DNA of 37,003 nucleotides from a virus: positions 1-37,003 of the IMG/VR virus record IMGVR_UViG_3300030390_001078; one strand, 5' to 3'. Under the pieces are notes generated by a model. The model searched no databases, was not told the DNA's origin, and was given only the letters and a program-made list of their open reading frames with translations. Below are positions 8,126 to 36,839 of the stretch, piece after piece; the stretch's first letter is position 1; every line of letters begins with the position of its first letter. Both the position numbers and the translations under genes were made by a program.

Positions 8126-10399
8126 ATGGGATTATGGTCAAGTACTTTCGGCGGTGGGAACAGCTTCACTGAGAGCGTTGCAAACGTATTTTCGACTACC
8201 GATGATGCTGTATACAGCAAAGGTAATCTCGTAACTCAGGCTAGCTATGATAATCAGCAATCTAACCCCTCAGCCAGCCTAGTGGCTATTCCAGTTTCGG
8301 ACATTGGACCGGGTAAGACATATTCTGGTAGGGGGAATGATGATACTAACGATGGCAACTTGCAATCTGACGGTACAGTTACACCTAAAGTACCCGGATC
8401 AGCCCCAGAGGCCCAATCTGCAAGTCAATTAGGCTTAGGCGCAGTTATGAATCCTTTGTCAGCTATCCCAAAAGTATTGGGGGGATTAGCGTCTTGGGCA
8501 AATGACCTAGACCCCGAATTGGATAATCCTAAAGAAGTAGATGGCCGAATGGTGTACACCCGTTCTGCTGAAGGTAAAAACTTTGAATACTCGTATAACT
8601 TCTTAGGAATGCCCTATCAGGTAGAGGTGCAGGGCGATAAGGTTGTAGACTTCCTTAAAATTGTTGAAGACCAAAACGGAAATAGAGAAGACTCTGCTCA
8701 ATTTAACCCTTCCACCGCAATGACAGGCTATCAGCGTAGCCAGGCTAGTTTCAACAACTCTAACGATAATGACGGCGCGGATCAGGTAGCTCAGTACCAG
8801 CAAAACAATGGGGTAGCATTTAGCTCTGGTGGCGGCGGCGGCGGTTTGGGCGGGGCAAGTGCTTCTGATATTGCTTCTATGGCTGAAAAGGCAGGCCTTG
8901 TTAAAGTTCAGTCTGATATGGATGAAATATTAGCAGACCCTAATAAGTTTTTATCAGACAGGGGTTTGAAACTTGCCGATCTTCAGCCGCAACTAAATGC
9001 AGATGCTGAAGGAGTTACTCTCGACCCTACTAACGAGGCATACAAGCTTGGAGGTGATATCGCCATCCAGCCCTCAACTGTAGGCTCTACAGCAACTGCT
9101 GATGCGGCTATTCAATCGGCAACCCCAACATACGAATCCAAGCTGACTGCTATGACGGATGCAGAAATGGTTCAGGCTGCTACAGGCGTTGTGAGCGACA
9201 ATGCACAAGTAGACGCCGATAAATTCACACTAGATATGACAGGCTCTGCCACTGGTGTGAATACCGATGGCACTAAAAACGAACTAGGATTAGCCTTAAA
9301 TAAATGGGCTAGTGTGGATGTTTCTAAAGTTATCGACACTAGTACAGCAGCAGGGAAACTTCTTGCTGATAAGTTAAGTAGCGAAGGCAAAGATTTTGTA
9401 GACGCGAAGGCTTCTATTCTGTTTCAAATGAAGACCATTACTTCGGAGTTTAAAGGGCCGAATAATGAGCCTGTGATCCCACCGTGGGCCGCTGCGTTAA
9501 GTAGAGATGCCCAAAGGTCTATTGCTTTTAGCGGGATCACTGGGACGGCAGCCATAGCCACGATGTCCAACGCGATCATGGAAGCAACTCTAGGCGTAGC
9601 TGAGAAAGAGGCCTCCTTCTTTCAGACGCTGACAACTAAAAACTTGGACAACAAACAAGAGTCGATCATCAATAAAGCAAACGTGCTATCTAAAATCGAT
9701 ATGACTAACTTAGACGTAAGGTCTCAGGCAGCAGTTTTGAACGCTAAGAACTTCATGCAACTTGATTTGAAGAATTTAACTAATGAGCAGCAGGCTGAAG
9801 TTGTGAACAAAGAGGCCTTAGTGCAGGCCATGTTTGACAATACAAAAGAAGTTAATTCAAATCGACTGTTCACGGCGAAGACTACAGCCGACAGAGATAC
9901 GTTTTATTCTGAGCTGAATGCGTCAATCCAACGACATAATTCCTCAGAGCAAAATATACTGGCAAAATTTAATGCGGGGGCGACTAATGGGGCGGTTGAG
10001 TTTAACGCCGACATGAAAAACGCCCGTGAGCAATTTGTTTCTAATATGCAATATAATATTGATGTCTCAAACGCTAAATGGAGACAGACAGTTGAGACTA
10101 CCAATACAGCCCTTGTTTCAGACGCCCATACCGCTGATGTTAAAGCTGCGTTGGACCTTACTCAAGAAGTGCAGAACAACATCTGGGACAGCGCAGACAA
10201 TCTTTTAGATTACATCTGGAAAACCGCTGACGCCGATCAGGAGCGTGAGATGCGTCTTCTAATGTCACAGATGCAGGCACAGTCTGCGACATCAGCCTCC
10301 GGAAACGGTTTCATGGACGGCTTACTGACACTGGGCGGGGCATACCTAGGAACTAGTAGTGGTTCAGGTTGGATTACCTCTCTACTTGGCGGAAAATAG
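8126..10399 (+). CDS. Large virion protein, probable ejection protein
   Basis: This 757-residue protein has an ATG directly after the o-spanin stop. The N-terminal 90 residues are low-complexity. A Gly run (SSGGGGGGLGGASAS) at about 233-247 separates an N-terminal domain (VEVQGDKVVDFLKIVEDQNG) from a long helical region. Residues 460-720 are Ala/Asn/Gln/Glu-rich with coiled-coil character. The C-terminus is Gly-rich and hydrophobic (FMDGLLTLGGAYLGTSSGSG). Such a tail occurs in phage pilot and ejection proteins that enter membranes. No family is recognised with certainty; position suggests the T7 gp14/gp15 role. Confidence 0.65.
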   Translation: MGLWSSTFGGGNSFTESVANVFSTTDDAVYSKGNLVTQASYDNQQSNPSASLVAIPVSDIGPGKTYSGRGNDDTNDGNLQSDGTVTPKVPGSAPEAQSASQLGLGAVMNPLSAIPKVLGGLASWANDLDPELDNPKEVDGRMVYTRSAEGKNFEYSYNFLGMPYQVEVQGDKVVDFLKIVEDQNGNREDSAQFNPSTAMTGYQRSQASFNNSNDNDGADQVAQYQQNNGVAFSSGGGGGGLGGASASDIASMAEKAGLVKVQSDMDEILADPNKFLSDRGLKLADLQPQLNADAEGVTLDPTNEAYKLGGDIAIQPSTVGSTATADAAIQSATPTYESKLTAMTDAEMVQAATGVVSDNAQVDADKFTLDMTGSATGVNTDGTKNELGLALNKWASVDVSKVIDTSTAAGKLLADKLSSEGKDFVDAKASILFQMKTITSEFKGPNNEPVIPPWAAALSRDAQRSIAFSGITGTAAIATMSNAIMEATLGVAEKEASFFQTLTTKNLDNKQESIINKANVLSKIDMTNLDVRSQAAVLNAKNFMQLDLKNLTNEQQAEVVNKEALVQAMFDNTKEVNSNRLFTAKTTADRDTFYSELNASIQRHNSSEQNILAKFNAGATNGAVEFNADMKNAREQFVSNMQYNIDVSNAKWRQTVETTNTALVSDAHTADVKAALDLTQEVQNNIWDSADNLLDYIWKTADADQEREMRLLMSQMQAQSATSASGNGFMDGLLTLGGAYLGTSSGSGWITSLLGGK

Positions 10400-10420
10400 T
10401 AAAGTACTGGATATTTAATT

Positions 10421-10624
10421 ATGACATTCGATGACGCAATAAAGAAATCTATCAAGGTATTTTTACAGGGTAAAATGCCAAGTAAGACCTCAGAGCTTAG
10501 TCCTGAAGGCTTGTTTTATACGCCTGAGTACTTTGACACGTTAGAAGCCGAGCTTCTGGACGGACCCACTGAAAGCACCAAAGACAAAGATGCTAAAGAC
10601 AAGGAGTCTATAGATGCAGCTTGA
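10421..10624 (+). CDS. Small acidic hypothetical protein
   Basis: This 67-residue protein has a helical N-terminus (MTFDDAIKKSIKVFLQGKMP) and a strongly charged C-terminal tail (STKDKDAKDKESIDAA). It overlaps the next gene by 11 bases and shares its strand and direction, which supports it as real. No family is recognised. It may be a small virion or assembly factor for the large proteins around it. Confidence 0.6.
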   Translation: MTFDDAIKKSIKVFLQGKMPSKTSELSPEGLFYTPEYFDTLEAELLDGPTESTKDKDAKDKESIDAA

Positions 10625-11189
10625 TGCACCAATACCCGGCGGTAATTACACTTCTGATACTCGAAATTATTCGTGGCACAGGCCACCTGATTTGGTGGAT
10701 TACGATCAGGCTGTTGATTATTTAATCAATAAGATTGATGAACCTGAGCAGATAGAAGTAGTGTTTGCGATGCTGGGTATAGATGCTCACATAACTACAG
10801 TCGTTACTACAATCCTCCTTCAGGCCGTATCCAAAGGGAAGATAGGTATTGACCTAGCAATCTTAGTAGCTGGTCCCCTAGCTAGGTACATTGAGATTTC
10901 CGCTAAAGATGTAGGCATGAAGTATGAATTGGGTATTGAGAACAAAGATCGAGTTATTATTACACCCAGCCTTCTAAAAGCTTCTCTAGGCATCATTGAG
11001 CAAGATGATGAGGAACTAGAAGAGCCTGAAGAAGAAGCCCCTTTAGAGGAGCCTACAGGGAGCCTGATGGCTATGCCTGCCGATATAACAGCACCTCAAA
11101 ACGAACAAGACGCAATGCTGGGTGGGGAAACTCTTGAAGAAGAAATTCCTGTTGAAGAAGCTGCTGTGTTGGAAGAGGAATTAGTATGA
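10614..11189 (+). CDS. Hypothetical virion protein with acidic C-terminus
   Basis: In this 191-residue protein, residues 1-125 look globular and helical (DYDQAVDYLINKIDEPEQIE, then a hydrophobic stretch TTVVTTILLQAV and DLAILVAGPLARYIEI). The final 55 residues are a highly acidic tail (EQDDEELEEPEEEAPLEEP and EEEIPVEEAAVLEEELV), which would be disordered. The hydrophobic part is too amphipathic to call a TM segment. It overlaps its upstream and downstream neighbours, the latter as ATGA, so it belongs to the same translational unit as the 1045-residue protein. Function unknown. Confidence 0.6.
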   Translation: MQLDAPIPGGNYTSDTRNYSWHRPPDLVDYDQAVDYLINKIDEPEQIEVVFAMLGIDAHITTVVTTILLQAVSKGKIGIDLAILVAGPLARYIEISAKDVGMKYELGIENKDRVIITPSLLKASLGIIEQDDEELEEPEEEAPLEEPTGSLMAMPADITAPQNEQDAMLGGETLEEEIPVEEAAVLEEELV

Positions 11190-14100
11190 GCTTTAAATCA
11201 GAAGCCGCGAATGTACGAGGCAAAATAGCCGCTGGGACATTTAAAAAAGCGGCCCCTAGTCCCTTCAAAGGTTTCTTTGAGCAGGTAAGTGCAGGTCTTA
11301 TACGATCTGACGAGGCGAAGAGACTAGAGGATATAGCGACTAGAAAAGAAAACAAGAGAATTGCCCGTGAGGTTAAGGCAGCGCAAGATATAGCAGATGC
11401 AAAGGCTAAAAAGATTGAAACTAATGCGGTTAGATTAGCTAATCAGTTTGCGGGTTCTGACGCAGGTTCAAACGCTAAGGTAATAGATTACTTCAGACAA
11501 AATCTTATTGCGACTGATAATGATTACAATGGTACGGTGACCGCCACTACTGGACTAATAGATAGTAACCAACTAACTTTTCTCCCGCAAGAATTGTATT
11601 CGGAAATAGTATCTACTTCAGGTGCTGCCCTCGACAAACCACCCGCAATGCGTCCTAACAACACGGTTACACTTCCTGAAGAATTTCCATTCAAAACCAC
11701 AAGCTATAATTATGAAACCGAATCTTATGATGCCGGAGGCCCCAGTAGAGTCATAGATGCCCGTGACCTTAAAAGGTTTGCCACCTATGACGGGAATGAT
11801 GAAACAAAGATTAAAGCTAGGGAACTAGCCCAGCAAATGATTGATTTAGGGTTGTCGGATGAGCGGCAACAAGCTGGGTATGATGACACTTCCACGACAG
11901 AGGTTCCTGTATATGGTGAAACAGAAGTTAAATTAGAGCCTTATAAAAAACCCCGATATGATACGGGTGATCTTAGAAAAGAAAATTGGAAAGGAATATA
12001 CCAAAGTATAGTCAACAACTCCTTAAAGGGTGATAAGGACCAAGACGCATTAGACATACAAGCTTGGGCTGTAGGACAGAAATTCTTTCCAGTAGCGGCG
12101 GGGTTAACAAAGGCGGAGCTTTTGGCTATGCCAGTAACTGGTGACGGCAAAATTGTAGGTTTGAATACAGTCTTAGGCACTTCCGTTTTAAACGCTGACG
12201 AAACTACAATAATTAATGATATAATAGTTGTTAAAAAAGCAGAAGAAGAAGACTCAAATATATATAATGATCTGGATAAGTTGATATTAAAAGAGGTCAG
12301 TGACTTGCGTGCTTTCGCAGCCATTTATGAAAAGACTACTGAATATGGTAAGAATATCCGTATCGCACTTACACGTAAGGAAGCCTTAGCTTCTGCGGAT
12401 AACCTACAAGCACTTTCCAGAGAGTTGGGTAAGGACGTTGATTGGTATGACCAAGCAATAGAAATCCAAGGTGTGCTAGATTTAGCTGATCCGTCCTATG
12501 ATCGAAACGTGGCATCTTTAAAAAGCCTCCTAATATTGCGCGGTCTGGCGGTAGAAAAATTGAACGCCGATGATATATTGGCTGACCAAAAGCTGACTGC
12601 TAAAGAGCGTTTCTTGAAAGCTAGCATTGAAGAAAAAGGCTCTATTACAGTAGGTGAAGATGGTAGTAACTCGCTGGGAGGGGAACCTCTTTCTATAGCT
12701 ATGGGTGCTATAGAGGCTTCATGGAAGCGTCTTACCGATATAACCGAGAAATCTAATTGGTATGAGGACGATAAACTTCTACAGTTAGATCAAAATGACT
12801 TAAAGGTTATTATCGATACGGGTTTGCTTACTGAACAGCCTGATGTTTTAAAACTTGTTGAAGATATGTACGAGTCTAGGGTCCAAATAGCAAAAGATAC
12901 TAAGCTATCAAAGATTTTAGACCCTACAGGTAAAACATTTAACTCAACAACTGAACTAGATGCGTTTTTAGCGGCACTGGGGCCAAAAGCATTTGAAGAC
13001 CCAACAAACGGGGCTGAGAGCCTAAAAAGTTTCACACGGGTTCGTGCCGTACTGGCGCAGGCTGAAGGATTGATTGCTAAAGGCAAACCCCTTGATACCT
13101 TCCAGTTATCTTTAGAAGAATATCTGCTCCTACCTGAGAATAAAGGCAAAAAAGGCCAGGAGTTTATAGATGTAATGACCAACTTCCAAACTTACTGGAA
13201 AGACAATACTGTTGCGACACCGGATGCACCAACCTTTAATACCGAATATGTAGCTGGAGAAATATTCAGAGCAAACGAATTACTTTCTTCTAATGATCCA
13301 ATTAAGAAAGCTGAGGGTCAAGCTTTCTTAGATAACACTCTCCCTAATATGATGAAGGGTCTAGTAGGCGTTAATAATACTACCCTTAATCAAGAAGCTC
13401 AATTACAATTTCTATTGAGCAGTGGCGTAGATGAAGCCTTTGCTAGGGCTACGGTTGGCGGTACAACCAAAATAGTTGCTGATCCAATCACTGGCGACAA
13501 AACTGTGGTTGACTTTTCTAGTTTCTCAGATGTGGCTCCCGCGGAGATTCAGACCCAAGTTGCAGGGATAGCGGCTAATATAACTCAGCTTGGTGAAACT
13601 GGCTTCCAAACGATTGTTGATGGTGAAGAAATTACTGTGTCCCGTAAAGACTTACTTGAATCACAAGCCTTTATGGACAGGGAGAAAAACCCAGGGGGTA
13701 ATTTAGATATTCGTAAGGCGTTTGGGTCAGGTGCATTCGTAAAGTGGGCGGCGTCTAACGCTACGGCCCTTATTGGTTGGGAGTCCTTCCCAGAGTTAAT
13801 TCAAATGCAAACATATATTAAGGGACTGAATAACGCAGCTATGCGTAGTATATCTGTGGCTATCGAAGGCTCCCGCGACAGTGTTATGAACAAGAATCTT
13901 ATTCTGGATACTTTACCTAAAGCTTCTACTTTGTTTGAAAGTAGAACAGCAGCAAAACAGAAGTTGAAAGGCACTGTAGGCGAATTAAAAAGGCAAATGG
14001 AAGTTTTGCAGGGTACTTTAGACGGGCGAACTACTCCCAAAGACAAATCAAAAGCATTTATACAACTTAATGCACTAAAACCATTATATAATTCTTATAA

Positions 14101-14323
14101 TACTCTCTTAACTGCTTGGTCAGAAGCCGAAAGCGGCGCTAGCGTGAGTGTCTCACCTGGTATGCAGCTTACCGAAACCGTAACTGTAGATGAAGAGGTC
14201 CCTGTGGAGCCACAATTCTTTGCCGTGACCGAGGAAATGATAGAACAATATCCGCATATGGTTAAATATAGGAATAAAAGAATACGGGCTGTCAATGGCA
14301 TTGTAGAAGTTGAAGGAGAATAA
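11186..14323 (+). CDS. Very large internal virion/ejection-type protein (1045 aa)
   Basis: This protein starts at ATG overlapping the previous stop by four bases. It is largely helical and charged, with few cysteines and no signal peptide. An N-terminal coiled stretch (ENKRIAREVKAAQDIADAKA) is followed by several globular-looking segments. The C-terminus ends with VTEEMIEQYPHMVKYRNKR, a small basic domain. I recognise no enzyme motif. Podoviruses encode two or three very large proteins after the lysozyme/GNAT genes that form the DNA-ejection channel (T7 gp15/gp16). Size, order and composition fit that role, but sequence homology is not evident by eye. Confidence 0.62.
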   Translation: MSFKSEAANVRGKIAAGTFKKAAPSPFKGFFEQVSAGLIRSDEAKRLEDIATRKENKRIAREVKAAQDIADAKAKKIETNAVRLANQFAGSDAGSNAKVIDYFRQNLIATDNDYNGTVTATTGLIDSNQLTFLPQELYSEIVSTSGAALDKPPAMRPNNTVTLPEEFPFKTTSYNYETESYDAGGPSRVIDARDLKRFATYDGNDETKIKARELAQQMIDLGLSDERQQAGYDDTSTTEVPVYGETEVKLEPYKKPRYDTGDLRKENWKGIYQSIVNNSLKGDKDQDALDIQAWAVGQKFFPVAAGLTKAELLAMPVTGDGKIVGLNTVLGTSVLNADETTIINDIIVVKKAEEEDSNIYNDLDKLILKEVSDLRAFAAIYEKTTEYGKNIRIALTRKEALASADNLQALSRELGKDVDWYDQAIEIQGVLDLADPSYDRNVASLKSLLILRGLAVEKLNADDILADQKLTAKERFLKASIEEKGSITVGEDGSNSLGGEPLSIAMGAIEASWKRLTDITEKSNWYEDDKLLQLDQNDLKVIIDTGLLTEQPDVLKLVEDMYESRVQIAKDTKLSKILDPTGKTFNSTTELDAFLAALGPKAFEDPTNGAESLKSFTRVRAVLAQAEGLIAKGKPLDTFQLSLEEYLLLPENKGKKGQEFIDVMTNFQTYWKDNTVATPDAPTFNTEYVAGEIFRANELLSSNDPIKKAEGQAFLDNTLPNMMKGLVGVNNTTLNQEAQLQFLLSSGVDEAFARATVGGTTKIVADPITGDKTVVDFSSFSDVAPAEIQTQVAGIAANITQLGETGFQTIVDGEEITVSRKDLLESQAFMDREKNPGGNLDIRKAFGSGAFVKWAASNATALIGWESFPELIQMQTYIKGLNNAAMRSISVAIEGSRDSVMNKNLILDTLPKASTLFESRTAAKQKLKGTVGELKRQMEVLQGTLDGRTTPKDKSKAFIQLNALKPLYNSYNTLLTAWSEAESGASVSVSPGMQLTETVTVDEEVPVEPQFFAVTEEMIEQYPHMVKYRNKRIRAVNGIVEVEGE

Positions 14324-14324
14324 T

Positions 14325-17300
14325 ATGGATCAAGAACTTTTGGATATACAAGCTCTCCAACAACAGGAAGACATAAAAGCTCTCCAACGACAGAAAGAAC
14401 TTTCCGAAATAGAAGCCCTCCAACAGCAGCAAAACATACAGGCCCCTGTAGCAGAGCCTGTAGTTCAAGAGACTGTAGCAGAGCCTGTAGTTCAAGAGAC
14501 TGCTTTTGTACCTAGGTTCCAAGGTGACAGCCAGTTTCAGCAAGATATGGTTGCTCGAAATCTGCCTGCGGAAGTTACCCAAACTGATGCGGCCCTAGTT
14601 GAAGCTCAAGTAGAACCCCAGATTACGGGTGAAAACTATAACGCTAAAGGTTTTCTTGCCGAATTGCAGCGAGGAGTAACCCCTGAAGACCTAGTCACTC
14701 TTATGTACGAAGGCGGTACAGACCTTCTAGAAGTAGATGGCGAGCCGTATGACTTTGCTGCGGATGTAGAAAAAAACGTACCCCCCCAAGAGATTATGGA
14801 TTATTTACTTACTGGGGAAACGGTTAGGGATGTTGGAGCAGTAACTTCAACCGTCATGGGCGTTAATACGGGTATTACAAACTTTGCAGGTATCCCCTTT
14901 GATTTAGCCAACTGGATAGCTAGGAAACTAGAGCAAGGTGGTAGAGCAGGTATTAATGCTGTTCTAGGAACTGACCTAAGCCTTGAGCCTGAAGATATGA
15001 TAGGTTCGTTTGCAGCTTCAGAAGGGGGTTATCCTTTAGGCTCTGTGGGCCTAAGAAAGGGATTGCGAACGGTTGGTATTGACATACCTGACAGCAAACG
15101 GGAAATCCCCGAAGAGTATAGGTCTCTGTATCAAGGTGGCCGTAGCGTAGGAGAAAATATTCTCCCTGCGGCGGCTCTCTATAAATTAGCCATTATAAAT
15201 GCAGGCAAAATAGCCTCAAACCCCAACATGCACCCTTTTGTCGCGCAGATGGCTAATAACCCTGCTGCATTTGCAAGAGGTGAAGCGGTAGCTATCTTAG
15301 GTGGCGCTATTGGCGCAGGCACTGCCGAGTCCCTAGCCCCTGACAACCCGTACTGGGCAATGGGTGGCGAAATAATAGGGGCTGTTGGCATAAGTCTAGT
15401 ACCTGCTGCGGCTAAAGCTACTTACAACGTCACCCCATTAGGTATGGCTACTAGAGGCGTGAAAAACATATTTAGTGGATTGAGTACAGAAGCAACTAGG
15501 AAAGCCGCTGGGCAAGAATTTTTGATTTCAATTGACGCGGCTAAGGCCGAACTTTTAGAGAAAGCTAGGGTAGCCACCAACGAAGGCAGAGAAGCAGATG
15601 CCACGGCACTTAAAACCGAGGCAGAGAGTTACGAGGTTAAAGCTGTTCTAAAATCTCTGGGCGAATTAAAAGAAAGTCAGGGCTTTGCATCCCTCCCCGC
15701 AGGCACAGGTACTGATAACGCCGGACTTTTAGGTATACAAAACTCATTAATGCAATCTAGTGAGAAGTATGGCACAGCCGTCAATAAGCAAATCGGCGAA
15801 GCTCTTGCAGGTATGTGGACTTTATCTTCTCAGCTACTAAAAAACGAAGGAACTCGGCGTGTAGGCGAGATAATGCAAGCTCGTTATATCCAAAACATCC
15901 TACAAAAAGAGATGATGGATAAAGCTCAGGCCATTCAGGATATCTTAAAGACTATCCCTAAAGGTGACATGGAAGCTGCATCATTAGCGGTGCAGTCTAT
16001 TCTCCGAGAGGGTAAAACTAATCTACGGAAAGCGGAAACATTCTGGTGGGACCGTATTAATAAGGCCACCCTTGTGGATGTATCTGAAGTTGCAAAGTCA
16101 ATTAGGGCGCAGCAAGCTAAGATGCCAGAAGGAGCTAACGTAGCTTCAGGTGAAGCCAATACAGTACTAAGTAACCTACTGGCACGGGCCGAAGCGGGGG
16201 AAGCACTTAGTGCAGGGGAAATTCTAAGTCAGCGCAGTTATTTTCTCGATCTTGCAAGGGAAGCTGGCGGAAATAGTCAATTTAAAGCTGCCGATAGGTA
16301 TGACGAGATTGCAGGTTCATTAATCGATGTATTAAACGCAATAGATGGCCCTGATAAAGATGTTATAGATATGGCTAGAAAGTTTAGTCTTAGATTAAAC
16401 GAAACCTATAACAGATACTGGATTAAAGACACCTTAGCGTCTGCTTCTAGTGGCGGCACTGTTAAAGACCCTAGACTTACTTTGGAAAGTGCTACGTCAG
16501 GAAGTGCGGCCCAAACAAATTTAAACTTACGCGATGCACAGGATGCCTCAGACCTGACTGATGCAGCCTCTGTTGGTACAGAACGTCAGCAAATGCTTGA
16601 TCTGGAAATCGCTGGGGCTAAGAACGCTGCTGATAATGTAGAGACAACTAGTGCTTCCGCTGGCGAAGCTACTGTACCAAGTGATACTCCTCCCAGTATG
16701 TTGGATGCCCTAACACAGTTCAGACAAGCATTTTACGAAAGTCCCAGCGCGATGGACCCGAAGGATGTCCCAACATCATCGGAAGCCCGTGTCATAGAAG
16801 ACGCAACAGGTAATATTACATATGAATCCACAAGTCCTGGGGTGAATAGGGACTCATCCAACTTCCCTGGCCCTGATGGACCGCGTAGACCAGACGCTGC
16901 CTCCCAGAGGCGGGATGCCGAGCAAGCTAGACGTGAAAAAACCTTTGAGGAATTTCCTGACGAGGGCATCTACACCTTAGATAACGAAGAAATATATGGG
17001 CAGTTAATGCCTCTTCCCGAAGGAATGTCTTTGGGGGCGGATATGAATGCCGCTCAATCTGTTGCTTTGCAGAATATGATCCGAAACCTTGCGGATAGTG
17101 CAGATAGATCAGGTATCCCTACCTCCGAAGCCCTTAACCGCTTTCTTACTGATAATGCCGAATTAGTAGAACGCTTCCCTGCCATTAAGACAAGGGCTGT
17201 GCAGTTAGTACAGGCACAGGAAGATGCTGCTATTTTAGTAGCTAACGTAGATAAGTTTAGTACTACTGAGAAGTTCAACAATTCAGTAGCTAAGGTATTT

Positions 17301-18125
17301 GCATCCGATAACCCTAGTCAAGGTTTTACCCAATTGGCAGAAGACATTCGGAGTGCCGCAGTACGCCAAGGAGAAGACCCCACCGAAGCTTTAGACCAAT
17401 TACGCGCATCCACGTTTGATATGATGTTAACTTCCGCAACAAAGGGGGATGACCTAGACTTCGTTAGTCTGTCTAACCAACTATTTGCTCCATTGGATAC
17501 TGCATCTACGGGTACATCTCGCATGGATATAATGATTCAAAACGGCCTAATGGATAACGATACTGCCGAGGCCGTAGCTTCCTTAATGTTTGAGTCTATA
17601 CGAATAAAGAAAAGTACTGCCGAGCCTGTTCAGTTCAACCAGATTATGCAGGACTCTGAGATGATGATAAATAACATTGCCCGTTTAGCAGGTGCTAATG
17701 TAGGGGTCCTGTTTGGGAAAGGTAATGCAAGCCTTCAAGCAGCTTCTATTGGTTCTGCCTTTATGAAGAACTTAGTGGATAGGCTGCCTAGGAAAAGAAA
17801 ACGGGAGCAGATGGAGTTCTTAATGTTAAATCCTAATATGTTACGGGACTATATTTCTAAAAACCCTACCATTCAGTTACGTGCAACTGACACGATAAAA
17901 GCAGGCTTGGGTAACATACAGGCAAGGTTTAAAGAGAAAGGCATTATAGGCGCACCCCTAAGTTATATCTGGGACGGTACAAAGTATGTTGCTTCCGGTA
18001 CTTTTAACACAGCGACTAAACCGCGAGTTGCTACTGTAGGTGCTTTAGAAGGTGACGGAGAAGTGGACCCCAACAACTTACCCTCTAGCCTAGATCAACA
18101 GATGCGTCAGGCGTTGCCACAATAA
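14325..18125 (+). CDS. Very large internal virion/ejection-type protein (1266 aa)
   Basis: The ATG at 14325 follows AGGAG (14314-14318) at six bases. An in-frame TTG at 14310 overlaps the previous gene but is less likely. The N-terminus is a Gln-rich repeat region (QALQQQEDIKALQRQKE) with an exact duplication of VAEPVVQET. Residues 150-370 include several Gly/Ala-rich hydrophobic stretches (AVAILGGAIGAGTAESLAP, GGEIIGAVGISLVPAAAK) that could insert in membranes, followed by long helices. The last 100 residues are basic (DRLPRKRKREQMEF). It is the last plus-strand gene before the terminator. By size and position it is the T7 gp16-like ejection protein; no transglycosylase motif was found. Confidence 0.65.
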   Translation: MDQELLDIQALQQQEDIKALQRQKELSEIEALQQQQNIQAPVAEPVVQETVAEPVVQETAFVPRFQGDSQFQQDMVARNLPAEVTQTDAALVEAQVEPQITGENYNAKGFLAELQRGVTPEDLVTLMYEGGTDLLEVDGEPYDFAADVEKNVPPQEIMDYLLTGETVRDVGAVTSTVMGVNTGITNFAGIPFDLANWIARKLEQGGRAGINAVLGTDLSLEPEDMIGSFAASEGGYPLGSVGLRKGLRTVGIDIPDSKREIPEEYRSLYQGGRSVGENILPAAALYKLAIINAGKIASNPNMHPFVAQMANNPAAFARGEAVAILGGAIGAGTAESLAPDNPYWAMGGEIIGAVGISLVPAAAKATYNVTPLGMATRGVKNIFSGLSTEATRKAAGQEFLISIDAAKAELLEKARVATNEGREADATALKTEAESYEVKAVLKSLGELKESQGFASLPAGTGTDNAGLLGIQNSLMQSSEKYGTAVNKQIGEALAGMWTLSSQLLKNEGTRRVGEIMQARYIQNILQKEMMDKAQAIQDILKTIPKGDMEAASLAVQSILREGKTNLRKAETFWWDRINKATLVDVSEVAKSIRAQQAKMPEGANVASGEANTVLSNLLARAEAGEALSAGEILSQRSYFLDLAREAGGNSQFKAADRYDEIAGSLIDVLNAIDGPDKDVIDMARKFSLRLNETYNRYWIKDTLASASSGGTVKDPRLTLESATSGSAAQTNLNLRDAQDASDLTDAASVGTERQQMLDLEIAGAKNAADNVETTSASAGEATVPSDTPPSMLDALTQFRQAFYESPSAMDPKDVPTSSEARVIEDATGNITYESTSPGVNRDSSNFPGPDGPRRPDAASQRRDAEQARREKTFEEFPDEGIYTLDNEEIYGQLMPLPEGMSLGADMNAAQSVALQNMIRNLADSADRSGIPTSEALNRFLTDNAELVERFPAIKTRAVQLVQAQEDAAILVANVDKFSTTEKFNNSVAKVFASDNPSQGFTQLAEDIRSAAVRQGEDPTEALDQLRASTFDMMLTSATKGDDLDFVSLSNQLFAPLDTASTGTSRMDIMIQNGLMDNDTAEAVASLMFESIRIKKSTAEPVQFNQIMQDSEMMINNIARLAGANVGVLFGKGNASLQAASIGSAFMKNLVDRLPRKRKREQMEFLMLNPNMLRDYISKNPTIQLRATDTIKAGLGNIQARFKEKGIIGAPLSYIWDGTKYVASGTFNTATKPRVATVGALEGDGEVDPNNLPSSLDQQMRQALPQ
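14448..14501 (+). repeat. Exact 27-bp tandem duplication
   Basis: Two identical adjacent 27-base units (14448-14474 and 14475-14501) encode VAEPVVQET twice near the N-terminus of the 1266-residue protein. Identity at every wobble base means the duplication is recent. It sits in a Gln/Pro-rich, probably disordered segment. Confidence 0.95.
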
Positions 18126-18263: not shown

Positions 18264-20276
18264 TTATGCAGATATATCTACGATTTCGCACGAATCTCCA
18301 CTACACGCCATAGTACTCATGCCAGTAGTGGTATCTTCTAGCTCATACTCAGATAATTTACTCCAATCTATGCGCTCTGGCATCTTTGCAAGCAATTCAT
18401 CATAGGTATCTTTTGAGACATCTGTGTAAGGAGCTTGCTGATAGATATGCTCACTGAACGGTAGGAAGCTCACGCCTGACATCTCATCAAAATGCTTATA
18501 GACGTATGCCCCTACTTCGAGCCATTCATCCGTTTTCACATTAATCGTGACACTAGGTTTATGTTCGCACCAATGTCTCTGATACATTAGCCACATATCT
18601 AACTGCTCGATAGCACTCATGTCTTTTGTACAGACAGAGCCTTCAGGTGATTTTACTGGGAAGCTGAAAACTGTAGTTTTGTCTGGCTTCTGCATCTCTG
18701 GCTCTGACGGTATGCCTTGGTCTATCATAAACTGAGTCATAGGGTCTTTATTATCCCCACGAACAGTGCGGATATAATAGGGAGAATGCCGCGCATGAAT
18801 CCCGCTGGCGCATGATACCAATTGTGAAACGCTTCCACTTGGCTTGACACAAGAAATAGCAGCCGACTGCGGTATACCTAGCCGTTCAGCCCATAACTTA
18901 TTTGTATCCACCGCGACCTGTTTTAGATGCTCAAGGGTTTGTGCTAGTCCATCATTTGCTAAGGTCATTAAGGGGTTGTCCATGATACCTGTGAGAGAGA
19001 CTCCAAGAAGCCTTTCTTCAGCCGTGTTATTCTCCCATACCTTTCGCAAGTACGGGAATTTAACAAACGTAGACTGAATAGTACCCAATATTGTAGCTAG
19101 GCGTACTTTATTACTTAAAGTTTCAATCGTGTCGGTAGCCCTGACTACGCACTCTGTTAAATTACAAAACTGTCCCCCAGTACCTGGGATGGGGTTTCCA
19201 GTTTTTTCATCTATTCTTGGACCGCGTAAAATGATCTCGCTGCAAGGATTTGTTCCAAAGTCATAGTTAGCGTTACGCCTTCCATTCTTAGCCGCTTGGG
19301 TTTTAGCCGCCTGTCGATTGAATATACCTCGCTCACCGGAATTGCTTGCAATTAATGAGGTCCATTCCCGTATGAACGACAGAGCATCTGGCTTTTTAGT
19401 ATAAGCAGTAGAGTTGTTGGCTAAGGCGCGGTAACCGTGTCGTTTGATGCCCTTTGCCTCATCATCCCACCACTCACCAGATTTGGCATGGCGCATCTGA
19501 TCATCTGATAGATTAGACAGAGAGATCATTGCTGATCTACGGACACCTCCAACCACTACTACTTCCCCGACCTTGCACATTATATCATGGCATTCGAGGC
19601 TTGATAGCTGACGCTCTTGAGCGCCTTTGAATGTAGTGACTGCGAAATTAAACAGATCAATCAAAGGCGCTGGGCCTGATGCCCTGCCTCCAAAGGTCTT
19701 CAACTTAGCACCCGCTGGGCGAACTTTACTCACATCCCACTTTGGTATTTCACCAGCCCAGAGTAACGCTAACAAAGTCCTGAATGCTTTGGCCCAACCC
19801 TCTTTGCTGTCCTGAACAACAACAACCGTATCAGTCCACATGAGTTTAGGTACTTCAGGCAAGTTGTTAATGAATTGACGCTCTACACTAAAACCAACCC
19901 CCGTGCCACACAGCAGAATAAACATGGCCTCATCAAATGCTCTTGGGCTATCCACAGGCAAGTAGCTACAGTTGTACATGCATGTATTGTCACGGTCAGC
20001 CGCTGGGCCAGCCGTCATGAGTGACCTCATAGAAGGCATAACTTCTAAACCTAGAATTGCATCTCGAATTTCTATTTCCAAGTCACCTAGTGTATCGTGC
20101 CAATCTTTGGAATCCTTAGACCACATCCAATTAGGCAGAGCTTGATGTACGATGTTAAGCATATACCGCTCAACAGTTTCACCCCAGTTTTCACGGCGAT
20201 TTTCATTATCTAACCAACGGGCATAACGGCTTGTGGCGATAAAAGTTTGGTAGTCAGTTGGTAGATAGTTGCTCAT
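18264..20276 (-). CDS. nrdJ: Class II (B12-dependent) ribonucleotide reductase
   Basis: This 670-residue enzyme reduces ribonucleotides to deoxyribonucleotides using adenosylcobalamin, supplying replication. NPCSEI at 343-348 gives the thiyl-radical Cys345 with Glu347 and Asn343. Cys103 (MYNCSYL) and Cys371 (QFCNLTE) are the likely reducing pair. Cys658 and Cys663 (CSGDSC) form the C-terminal CX4C shuttle. The layout matches the monomeric Lactobacillus leichmannii type (about 739 residues) but is shorter. The host must provide B12 and thioredoxin. It is the last gene of the minus-strand operon. Class II RNR is frequent in marine podoviruses. Confidence 0.93.
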   Translation of the reverse strand: MSNYLPTDYQTFIATSRYARWLDNENRRENWGETVERYMLNIVHQALPNWMWSKDSKDWHDTLGDLEIEIRDAILGLEVMPSMRSLMTAGPAADRDNTCMYNCSYLPVDSPRAFDEAMFILLCGTGVGFSVERQFINNLPEVPKLMWTDTVVVVQDSKEGWAKAFRTLLALLWAGEIPKWDVSKVRPAGAKLKTFGGRASGPAPLIDLFNFAVTTFKGAQERQLSSLECHDIMCKVGEVVVVGGVRRSAMISLSNLSDDQMRHAKSGEWWDDEAKGIKRHGYRALANNSTAYTKKPDALSFIREWTSLIASNSGERGIFNRQAAKTQAAKNGRRNANYDFGTNPCSEIILRGPRIDEKTGNPIPGTGGQFCNLTECVVRATDTIETLSNKVRLATILGTIQSTFVKFPYLRKVWENNTAEERLLGVSLTGIMDNPLMTLANDGLAQTLEHLKQVAVDTNKLWAERLGIPQSAAISCVKPSGSVSQLVSCASGIHARHSPYYIRTVRGDNKDPMTQFMIDQGIPSEPEMQKPDKTTVFSFPVKSPEGSVCTKDMSAIEQLDMWLMYQRHWCEHKPSVTINVKTDEWLEVGAYVYKHFDEMSGVSFLPFSEHIYQQAPYTDVSKDTYDELLAKMPERIDWSKLSEYELEDTTTGMSTMACSGDSCEIVDISA

Positions 20277-35445: not shown

Positions 35446-36213
35446 TTAATGAGTAATGAAAACTACAGGCTTGGAAGCTGTCCAGCACAGGCCGCAAGCG
35501 CCACAATCTGGAACAAGTGTTTCCTCGCCCTTGGCTGCATAGCGTCCGGTTAATTTGCTGATCTGAGTAGGACACAAGAATGCGGCTTTAGCTTCCACAA
35601 GCGCCACAGATCGACTGTCGTCATTGCTAAGGGCTGTCATGCTAGTGCGGTCAAAATTGCCGCTAAAACGTACCGACCAACGCGCTTGGCAATTCTCGGA
35701 CAATGAAAGCAATGCAAGCCCTATGGCGCTCTCTGTGGCGTCCGTGGCGTCCGGTTGGTTGGCGGTGTAACCGTAGACATGCAAGGCTGGAAACATGCTC
35801 AACCACTTAGCCCACTTGGCAACGTAACCGACTGAATAAAAATCACCCAAAATATGCAATCTTACTAGAAAGCCGCTTGGGTATTTGGCTTGCAAGGCTG
35901 TTAGCTCAGTCTCTAACATTGCTTCCAAATCAGGACCCGCATTATAGCGAGTGGCGAACATCATATTGTTTCCGTAGCAATCAAACCAATGAGCGCATGA
36001 TTTAGGGCAAGTGGCTCTCTCTTCCAAAGTTAAGGTGAGAATAGGAAAGCCCTTCCACTTACCTTTGGTAACCCACTTTCCAAGCTTGATATTGGTTGAC
36101 TTCTTAATGAGCCGCTCAGATTTAGCCATTCCCTCAGATATAGATTTGACCCTATTGGAATAGACAGAACGATCATTCATTGCGGCCAGTTCAGTTTTAG
36201 AAAGGGCTTTCAT
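35446..36213 (-). CDS. Cys-rich GP88-like protein, possible metal/Fe-S enzyme
   Basis: This 255-residue protein has Cys69, Cys73 and Cys79 (ERATCPKSCAHWFDCYG), a lone Cys214 (AAFLCPTQ) and a C-terminal Cys237-x2-Cys240-x2-Cys243 (DCGACGLCW). In between is a Trp/Tyr-rich alpha/beta part (FLVRLHILGDFYSVGYVAKW, ALHVYGYTANQPDATDATES). The layout resembles phage GP88 proteins of mycobacteriophages, whose function is unknown, and recalls radical-SAM-like folds. The ATG overlaps the upstream stop. It is the largest early accessory gene. I do not know its substrate. Confidence 0.6.
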   Translation of the reverse strand: MKALSKTELAAMNDRSVYSNRVKSISEGMAKSERLIKKSTNIKLGKWVTKGKWKGFPILTLTLEERATCPKSCAHWFDCYGNNMMFATRYNAGPDLEAMLETELTALQAKYPSGFLVRLHILGDFYSVGYVAKWAKWLSMFPALHVYGYTANQPDATDATESAIGLALLSLSENCQARWSVRFSGNFDRTSMTALSNDDSRSVALVEAKAAFLCPTQISKLTGRYAAKGEETLVPDCGACGLCWTASKPVVFITH

Positions 36214-36377
36214 TGGTTTGCCCCCTTGTTGAATGCGTTGTTAGTTTCGATATCAAAGGCTCTTAACTCTGTAAGCATCGCTTCGATCTTTTCACGCGCT
36301 GCGGCAATTTTCTGATCATGCTCAATTCGTTCGGCTTGAAAATTGGCAAGAAAATCTTTGTGCTGTTCAATTGTCAT
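36210..36377 (-). CDS. Small coiled-coil protein, first early gene
   Basis: I choose the ATG at 36377, nine bases after CGGAG, giving 55 residues: MTIEQHKDFLANFQAERIEH and a long helix (AAAREKIEAMLTELRAFDIE). In-frame starts up to GTG 36458 would add a polar N-terminus but lack an SD. It is the promoter-proximal gene of the early block, overlaps the GP88-like gene as ATGA, and has no recognised family. Confidence 0.5.
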   Translation of the reverse strand: MTIEQHKDFLANFQAERIEHDQKIAAAREKIEAMLTELRAFDIETNNAFNKGANQ

Positions 36378-36839
36378 TGGCTTAGTCTCCGGTTGGTTGG
36401 TCATTGTGGGGCGTTGGCTCCCCTTACCCATGATCATAGTCACAAGTTTACTAAACACAATAACTAATTGGCTTAGTCAGCTAAAACAGACTGTATTTAG
36501 TTAACAGCCATTGTAAGAGCCTTAGAGCGACCAAACGTTCATTCGTGGGCGTTAGTATGTAGAAAAGGTTAACAGCCATTCAGCGGCGATTTAGGTGTTT
36601 GTTCCCGTTATGTTCCTGCCGAGGCATACGGTAAAATTATGATGCTCAAACGAGGTCCCTTATAGTAGTGTGTTTTAGTGGGCTGCTAAGGTGAGCGGCA
36701 AGGTTGGCTGAGGATATACAAAGCCGCGCTTACCTCACTGGATTTAAAACTGTCAGCCAATTGGATCGCTCGCGCGTTAAGATCGAAGGCCAATTATTTG
36801 TTGGCTGATTTTCTTCCGCAATATTCTGAGCGCAAATAA
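36378..36839. promoter_or_regulatory. Divergent, gene-free control region
   Basis: About 460 bases without a convincing gene separate the leftward early block from a rightward frame. It holds two exact copies of GTTAACAGCCATT (36500-36512 and 36568-36580), a TTTAGTTAAC like the integrase operators, and TTGGCTGA in three places (36704, inverted at 36753, 36801). An imperfect inverted pair, GGTGAGCGGC / GCCGCGCTTACC, lies at about 36689-36734. A weak minus-strand promoter (TTTAGC-17-TATTGT, ending near 36460) is possible. It probably holds the early and late promoters and their operators. Confidence 0.5.

Follow-up and report, generated by a model that had tools for sequence, protein, structure and literature searches.

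The phage GP88 family as a candidate group of compact, divergent radical-SAM-type Fe-S enzymes

The GP88 gene and its genomic context

The window, a 37,003-nucleotide stretch of viral DNA (IMG/VR record IMGVR_UViG_3300030390_001078, positions 1 to 37,003), encodes a GP88 protein as the second gene of a leftward operon. The first-pass annotation of this locus gave no strand; we found a single complete ORF within 35446-36213 on the minus strand, and stop codons crowd the plus-strand frame. The gene and its start region comprise the following features.

35446..36213, minus strand: GP88 gene, 255 aa, ATG start, TAA stop; PF17338 (E=5.4e-11), phrog_2554 (E=2e-22)
36210..36458, minus strand: upstream 82-aa ORF, first gene of the leftward operon, with a 4-nt overlap with the GP88 start
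36220..36226 (approximate), minus strand: probable ribosome-binding site, AAGGGGG, 5' of the GP88 ATG, read directly from the sequence

The overlap of the 82-aa ORF's stop with the GP88 ATG likely couples the translation of the two genes; the upstream ORF had no match in Pfam. The GP88 label given in the first-pass annotation is correct, as PF17338 matched the protein with 43.2 bits against a gathering cut-off of 24.4 bits. PHROGs placed it in two families, both of unknown function, and neither NCBIfam nor PADLOC gave a match. The defence models of PADLOC also did not match gp88 of mycobacteriophage D29, the namesake of the family, and HTH-fused GP88 relatives matched these models solely via their HTH parts. 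By sequence, the window protein belongs to a family that is already known but has no assigned function. More than 550 GP88 relatives came from each of two profile scans of IMG/VR. A search of a plasmid collection yielded zero relatives of window GP88 and, for the D29 type, weak Streptomyces matches only.

Downstream of GP88 the operon continues with a repressor-like HTH protein, integrase, primase, helicase, DNA polymerase, exonuclease, methyltransferase, and ribonucleotide reductase, and the position of GP88 as the second gene of such an operon fits the earlier assignment to a phage early region. In Roseobacter phages CRP-114 and CRP-361 (79% identical), GP88 is the first gene and precedes the phage RNA polymerase. 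RNA-seq of Mycobacterium phage Kampy showed that expression at 5 min after infection is largely confined to genes 82-88 (PMC4626039), and the GP88 protein of this phage, gp87, falls inside this range. From these observations we infer early expression of GP88 in the window phage as well.

When we looked to conserved neighbours for a clue to the substrate, we found only an opposite-strand terminase gene, an Xre-like HTH gene, and a PDDEXK nuclease gene, which look like ordinary genes of an early/late junction. The Sf6-like terminase gene lay on the strand opposite GP88 in all 33 IMG/VR cases (33/33), usually within a few genes upstream. As for the rest of the window, the tyrosine integrase (PF00589; 29886-31205, minus strand) belongs to the same leftward early operon and suggests a temperate phage. 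The ribonucleotide reductase gene (18264-20276, minus strand; phrog_367, E=1.6e-171) is about 71% identical in DNA to Roseobacter phage CRP-4; the first 20 kb had no other near DNA match. Three very large ORFs of 757, 1045, and 1271 aa occupy 8126-18125 on the plus strand; the 757- and 1271-aa ORFs had no Pfam match, and the 1045-aa ORF had a sub-threshold one only (E=0.08).

Conserved cysteines and the three GP88 types

We collected relatives of window GP88 from IMG/VR, bacterial genome contigs, and phage records, and aligned a close group of 82 sequences, a non-redundant set of 54 rows (<75% identity) that includes chromosomal copies from Rhizobiales, Sphingomonadales, Rhodospirillales, and Rhodobacterales, and a joint set of 76 rows covering three GP88 types. 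The conserved features map to the gene as follows.

35977..36009, minus strand: N-terminal three-Cys cluster C69-X3-C73-X5-C79 (followed by Y80), in the loop after strand 1; invariant in 76/76 rows across the three types
35833..35871, minus strand: strand 2 and the RLHILGDFYS motif, residues 115-127; R118 in 76/76 and D124 in 75/76 rows; strand 115-119 in the model
35662..35766, minus strand: T150 through S184, the ends of strands 3 and 4, respectively; T150 is T/S in all rows, S184 is conserved in 76/76
35572..35574, minus strand: C214 in a CPxQ motif; 54/54 relatives, 58/58 including the D29 type
35485..35505, minus strand: C-terminal cluster C237-X2-C240-X2-C243 (followed by W244); 54/54, and 58/58 when the D29 type is included; missing in the Kampy type

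Both cysteine clusters reported in the first-pass annotation were present as described, C69-PKS-C73-AHWFD-C79 being CX3CX5C and C237-GA-C240-GL-C243 being CX2CX2C, but C214, the fourth partner of the C-terminal cluster, had been overlooked. Cysteine makes up 8 of the 255 residues (3.1%), compared with 1.1% in the long ORFs of the window. Exactly seven cysteines (C69, C73, C79, C214, C237, C240, and C243) were invariant in the 54 non-redundant relatives, and the eighth, C175, was not conserved. Because the same seven, and no others, are invariant in 54/54 relatives, the pattern is not due to chance. The seven were also conserved in the close group of 82, one row of which is a fragment lacking the C-terminal part. 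Variable cysteines among homologues had been named beforehand as evidence against a metal site; we found instead that the cysteines are the most conserved residues of the family. Further residues invariant in the 54 rows were R118, H120, G123, D124, F125, Y130, W134, S184, Q217, W244, F252, and H255.

GP88 proteins fall into three types. The D29 protein aligned with the window group by profile (hhalign, 97.9%). The third type is represented by Kampy gp87 (L377:2631-3515), which is GP88 by Pfam (E=1.4e-35), belongs to phrog_1617, and is located at the same end as D29 gp88 in a related phage. This protein and 17 non-redundant relatives have only the three N-terminal cysteines, in the motif CPMASKGCxxxC, and the four C-terminal ones are gone. 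In the joint alignment, C69, C73, C79, R118, and S184 were present in every row, and C214, C237, C240, and C243 in all 58 rows of two types and none of the third. The three-Cys site is universal in GP88 and the four-Cys site is an add-on. Because the Kampy type keeps only three cysteines, the universal site is a three-Cys site with one coordination position left free. The Kampy-type branch is also a naturally occurring control for what the second cluster does.

Some relatives carry additional domains. GP88 is fused to HTH repeats in Ruegeria phage 45A6 (L150:4077-5624) and to a winged HTH in Rhodobacter phage RcZahn (L151:4626-5591), and a Thalassobaculum litoreum protein (L172) has GcrA at the GP88 C-terminus. 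In a Caulobacterales MAG (JACRBD010000131.1; L185:8001-8486 and flanks), a Hint-type intein of about 250 aa splits GP88 exactly at the third N-terminal cysteine, with the junctions ADC/LAPGTRIL...AHN/CYGN. Inteins favour active sites as insertion places, and we count this insertion in favour of the enzyme reading proposed below.

Predicted structure

An AlphaFold2 model of window GP88 built from 58 aligned sequences had a pLDDT of 94.8 and a pTM of 0.90. Its first half consists of strand 57-61, the Cys loop, helix 94-110, strand 115-119, and helix 128-140, and its second half of strand 144-150, helix 159-178, strand 179-184, strand 193-196, and a Cys-rich tail; T150 and S184 lie at the ends of strands 144-150 and 179-184. 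In the model, this alternating beta/alpha order with a Cys loop after strand 1 is what a shortened radical-SAM core would be expected to show. The structure prediction and fold search suggested in the first-pass annotation gave a divided answer, because the order of strands and helices fits the partial (beta/alpha)6 barrel of radical-SAM enzymes but a significant PDB neighbour was not found. Foldseek with the pLDDT-94.8 model against the PDB gave a best E of 0.027 and query-normalised TM scores below 0.31, with no radical-SAM enzyme among the top 50. Whether the model was shallow (pLDDT 85) or deep (pLDDT 95), its PDB fold neighbours were weak Rossmann or TIM matches only (TM <0.31 by query), and we rejected them. 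An earlier, weaker model searched against viral models retrieved GP88 relatives and, far down, three weak matches annotated as QueE-like, Fe-S oxidoreductase, and radical SAM.

Relationship to DUF5131 and radical-SAM families

By hmmscan, two DUF5131 proteins passed the GP88 cut-off with E=1e-7 and 5e-7; a further two reached E=5e-5 and 1e-4. We ran the PF17338 HMM over 249 and then 398 bacterial genomes, in which true GP88s were rare; the other intact long-frame matches down to E=3e-3 were all DUF5131, as were the best six intact non-GP88 matches in the 398 genomes. GP88 and DUF5131 are homologous by this curated HMM, a relation between families and not a membership, and the PF07505 (DUF5131) HMM itself gave no match to window GP88 in the Pfam scan. 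The GP88-DUF5131 step is the weak point of the chain. Direct hhalign of our GP88 profiles with single radical-SAM proteins, DUF5131, or an SplB-like radical-SAM family was no better than with decoys, and an HMM built from the three GP88 types did not reach DUF5131 significantly. Since our own profiles, made from fewer sequences, stayed at decoy level, the link rests on Pfam's deeper curated profile.

The next step of the chain joins DUF5131 to radical-SAM proteins, to which it is homologous. DUF5131 proteins matched NCBIfam TIGR04471, radical SAM mobile pair protein A, with E=3e-27. The SplB-like family comprises loci L347-L374, with founding members L223 and L224 recruited by PF04055, and we take it to be of the COG1533 type. 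Independently of the TIGR04471 match, the DUF5131 profile matched this family with E=1e-4 over 129 columns by hhalign, with the Cys motifs superposed; GC...GC..CYA fell on GC..GC.YCFA, SMSDLFH on NTDPYQP, and LTKR on TKS. For comparison, the best of 50 decoy families reached E=0.03, and, as a yardstick, two proteins from the same genome set that match PF04055 gave E=1e-4 and 5e-4 against the SplB-like family. In GP88, the residues GDF, YTA, and S184 occupy the places corresponding to the DUF5131/SplB-like motifs, and the T150-S184 stretch is the counterpart of LTK...S in both families. The DUF5131 genes at L203:439-1353 and L206:49-1206 each adjoin another conserved gene, which in the former is TcmP, the three-Cys-motif partner (TIGR04474, E=8e-56), and in the latter looks similar.

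The first-pass annotation had also proposed a search for conserved SAM-binding residues, and the 76 rows gave a mixed picture in which D124 after strand 2 and S184 at strand 4 are conserved but GGE is replaced. The RLHILGDFYS region sits where the radical-SAM GGE motif would be, and the place of GGE itself holds GDF, with an Asp also there in DUF5131 and the SplB-like family. C69, C73, and C79 are invariant, as the [4Fe-4S] motif of the radical SAM superfamily requires; the canonical CX3CX2C spacing was absent, being CX3CX5C in window GP88 and CX6CX3C in the D29 and Kampy types. Departures from the canonical spacing occur in some radical-SAM enzymes. In the Pfam scan, PF04055 gave no match to window GP88 at E<=1, and sequence searches of the PDB with the window protein and with two GP88 profiles and one DUF5131 profile returned nothing meaningful. 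In the literature searched, mostly outside subscription journals, one paper contained both 'gp88' and 'radical SAM', and none named PF17338, a protein of the GP88 family, or DUF5131 together with radical SAM.

Discussion

We propose that GP88 is probably a compact, divergent radical-SAM-type Fe-S enzyme made early in infection, a reading based on sequence comparison. The first-pass annotation had suggested bound Fe-S or zinc and perhaps a radical-SAM-like enzyme; the chain from GP88 through DUF5131 to radical SAM and the Asp and Ser at the expected places speak for this suggestion, but the cysteine spacing, PF04055, and the PDB fold search speak against it. Since neither the canonical spacing nor a direct PF04055 match was found when sought, we withhold the formal label of radical SAM enzyme and propose that GP88 probably works in the same way and is a remote homologue of DUF5131, a family that the NCBI models class as radical-SAM.

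In the proposed mechanism, the loop that follows strand 1 would carry a [4Fe-4S] cluster on C69, C73, and C79, and the free iron of this cluster would hold S-adenosylmethionine. The SAM site, where the (beta/alpha) core is open, would be lined by the Asp after strand 2, the Thr after strand 3, and the Ser at strand 4. The [4Fe-4S] cluster would cleave SAM reductively to give a 5'-deoxyadenosyl radical, a reaction that we attribute to GP88 from its sequence relationships. C214, C237, C240, and C243 may hold an auxiliary [4Fe-4S] cluster, which the Roseobacter/alphaproteobacterial and D29 types would have and the Kampy type would lack, although for this four-Cys site zinc is also proposed. A universal three-Cys site together with an optional four-Cys site is the pattern that would be expected of a radical-SAM cluster plus an auxiliary [4Fe-4S] cluster. 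The radical chemistry would then modify a host or phage target, perhaps a nucleic acid or a protein bound to nucleic acid; the nature of this target is suggested by the HTH fusions only and is put forward tentatively.

The main rivals of this proposal are a zinc protein and an Fe-S protein outside the radical-SAM class. The same cysteines could be read as zinc ligands, with C214, C237, C240, and C243 forming a Cys4 zinc knuckle and the N-terminal cysteines and a His forming a second structural zinc site. GP88 would then carry out no redox chemistry and would serve host takeover by binding DNA or protein. Zinc sites, too, commonly show CX2CX2C plus a distant Cys, the HTH fusions suit a regulator, and no significant radical-SAM fold match was found in the PDB. 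However, the sole universal site has three cysteines without an invariant His partner, H120 being replaced by Asn in the Kampy type, and the chain of homologies runs through DUF5131 to radical-SAM families and not to zinc fingers. Because the universal three-Cys site stands without the four-Cys site, Fe-S explains the pattern better than zinc, and we consider a zinc protein unlikely.

An Fe-S protein that is not a radical-SAM enzyme, such as a redox or oxygen sensor of the early switch like the WhiB-type proteins in mycobacteriophages, appears quite improbable; a conserved beta/alpha core of about 180 residues with invariant polar residues at the strand ends (R118, D124, and S184) exceeds the needs of a sensor, even though seven conserved cysteines, HTH fusions, and early expression would suit one. 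It is very improbable that GP88 descends from a radical-SAM-like fold and, SAM chemistry having been lost, does no more than bind a target. The shift of Cys spacing between types (CX3CX5C versus CX6CX3C) and the disappearance of GGE could be taken as signs of such a loss, but decay would not have kept the three cysteines, R118, and S184 invariant, and D124 nearly so, across very distant phages.

If GP88 is a radical-SAM-type enzyme, GP88, DUF5131, and TIGR04471 would be united as one mobile-element radical-SAM-like group. It is conceivable, though doubtful, that GP88 and DUF5131 form a very widespread, unrecognised phage radical-SAM clade that, in the first minutes of infection, chemically modifies a nucleic acid of the host or a protein attached to one, as a host-takeover or counter-defence enzyme. 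Such a clade would span mycobacteriophages to marine Roseobacter phages, some branches having their own auxiliary Fe-S cluster. GP88 is among the commonest unknown proteins of tailed phages and is present in the much-used mycobacteriophage D29, and with a testable enzyme class (anaerobic Fe-S, SAM cleavage) and a list of residues to mutate, what is now a 'hypothetical protein' would become the subject of a defined experiment.

Comparison with known systems

D29 gp88 shares the seven cysteines and the RxHxxGDF motif with window GP88 at about 20% identity, but differs in its N-terminal spacing (CX6CX3C versus CX3CX5C) and in its C-terminus, where a lysine-rich tail stands in place of His255. The Kampy type has the D29-like CX6CX3C spacing and keeps the D and S motifs, whereas GDF is changed to TSD and the C-terminal four-Cys site is missing.

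DUF5131 proteins (PF07505, phage Gp37/Gp68-like; TIGR04471) resemble GP88 in having three cysteines ending in CYA, S-D-L-F after strand 2, and LTK after strand 3, but their spacing is CX6CX2C, their C-terminal half is different, and they lack a GP88-like auxiliary four-Cys site. The SplB-like family likewise has a Cys loop after strand 1, an Asp after strand 2 (TDPYQP), and TKS after strand 3, while its spacing is the canonical CX3CX2C and its direct match to GP88 is at decoy level only. SPASM/twitch enzymes have extra C-terminal cysteines beyond the SAM cluster, as GP88 does. Window GP88 had no SPASM/twitch match in Pfam or NCBIfam, and its C...CX2CX2C spacing differs from the SPASM pattern, CX9-15GX4C...CX2CX5CX3C...C.
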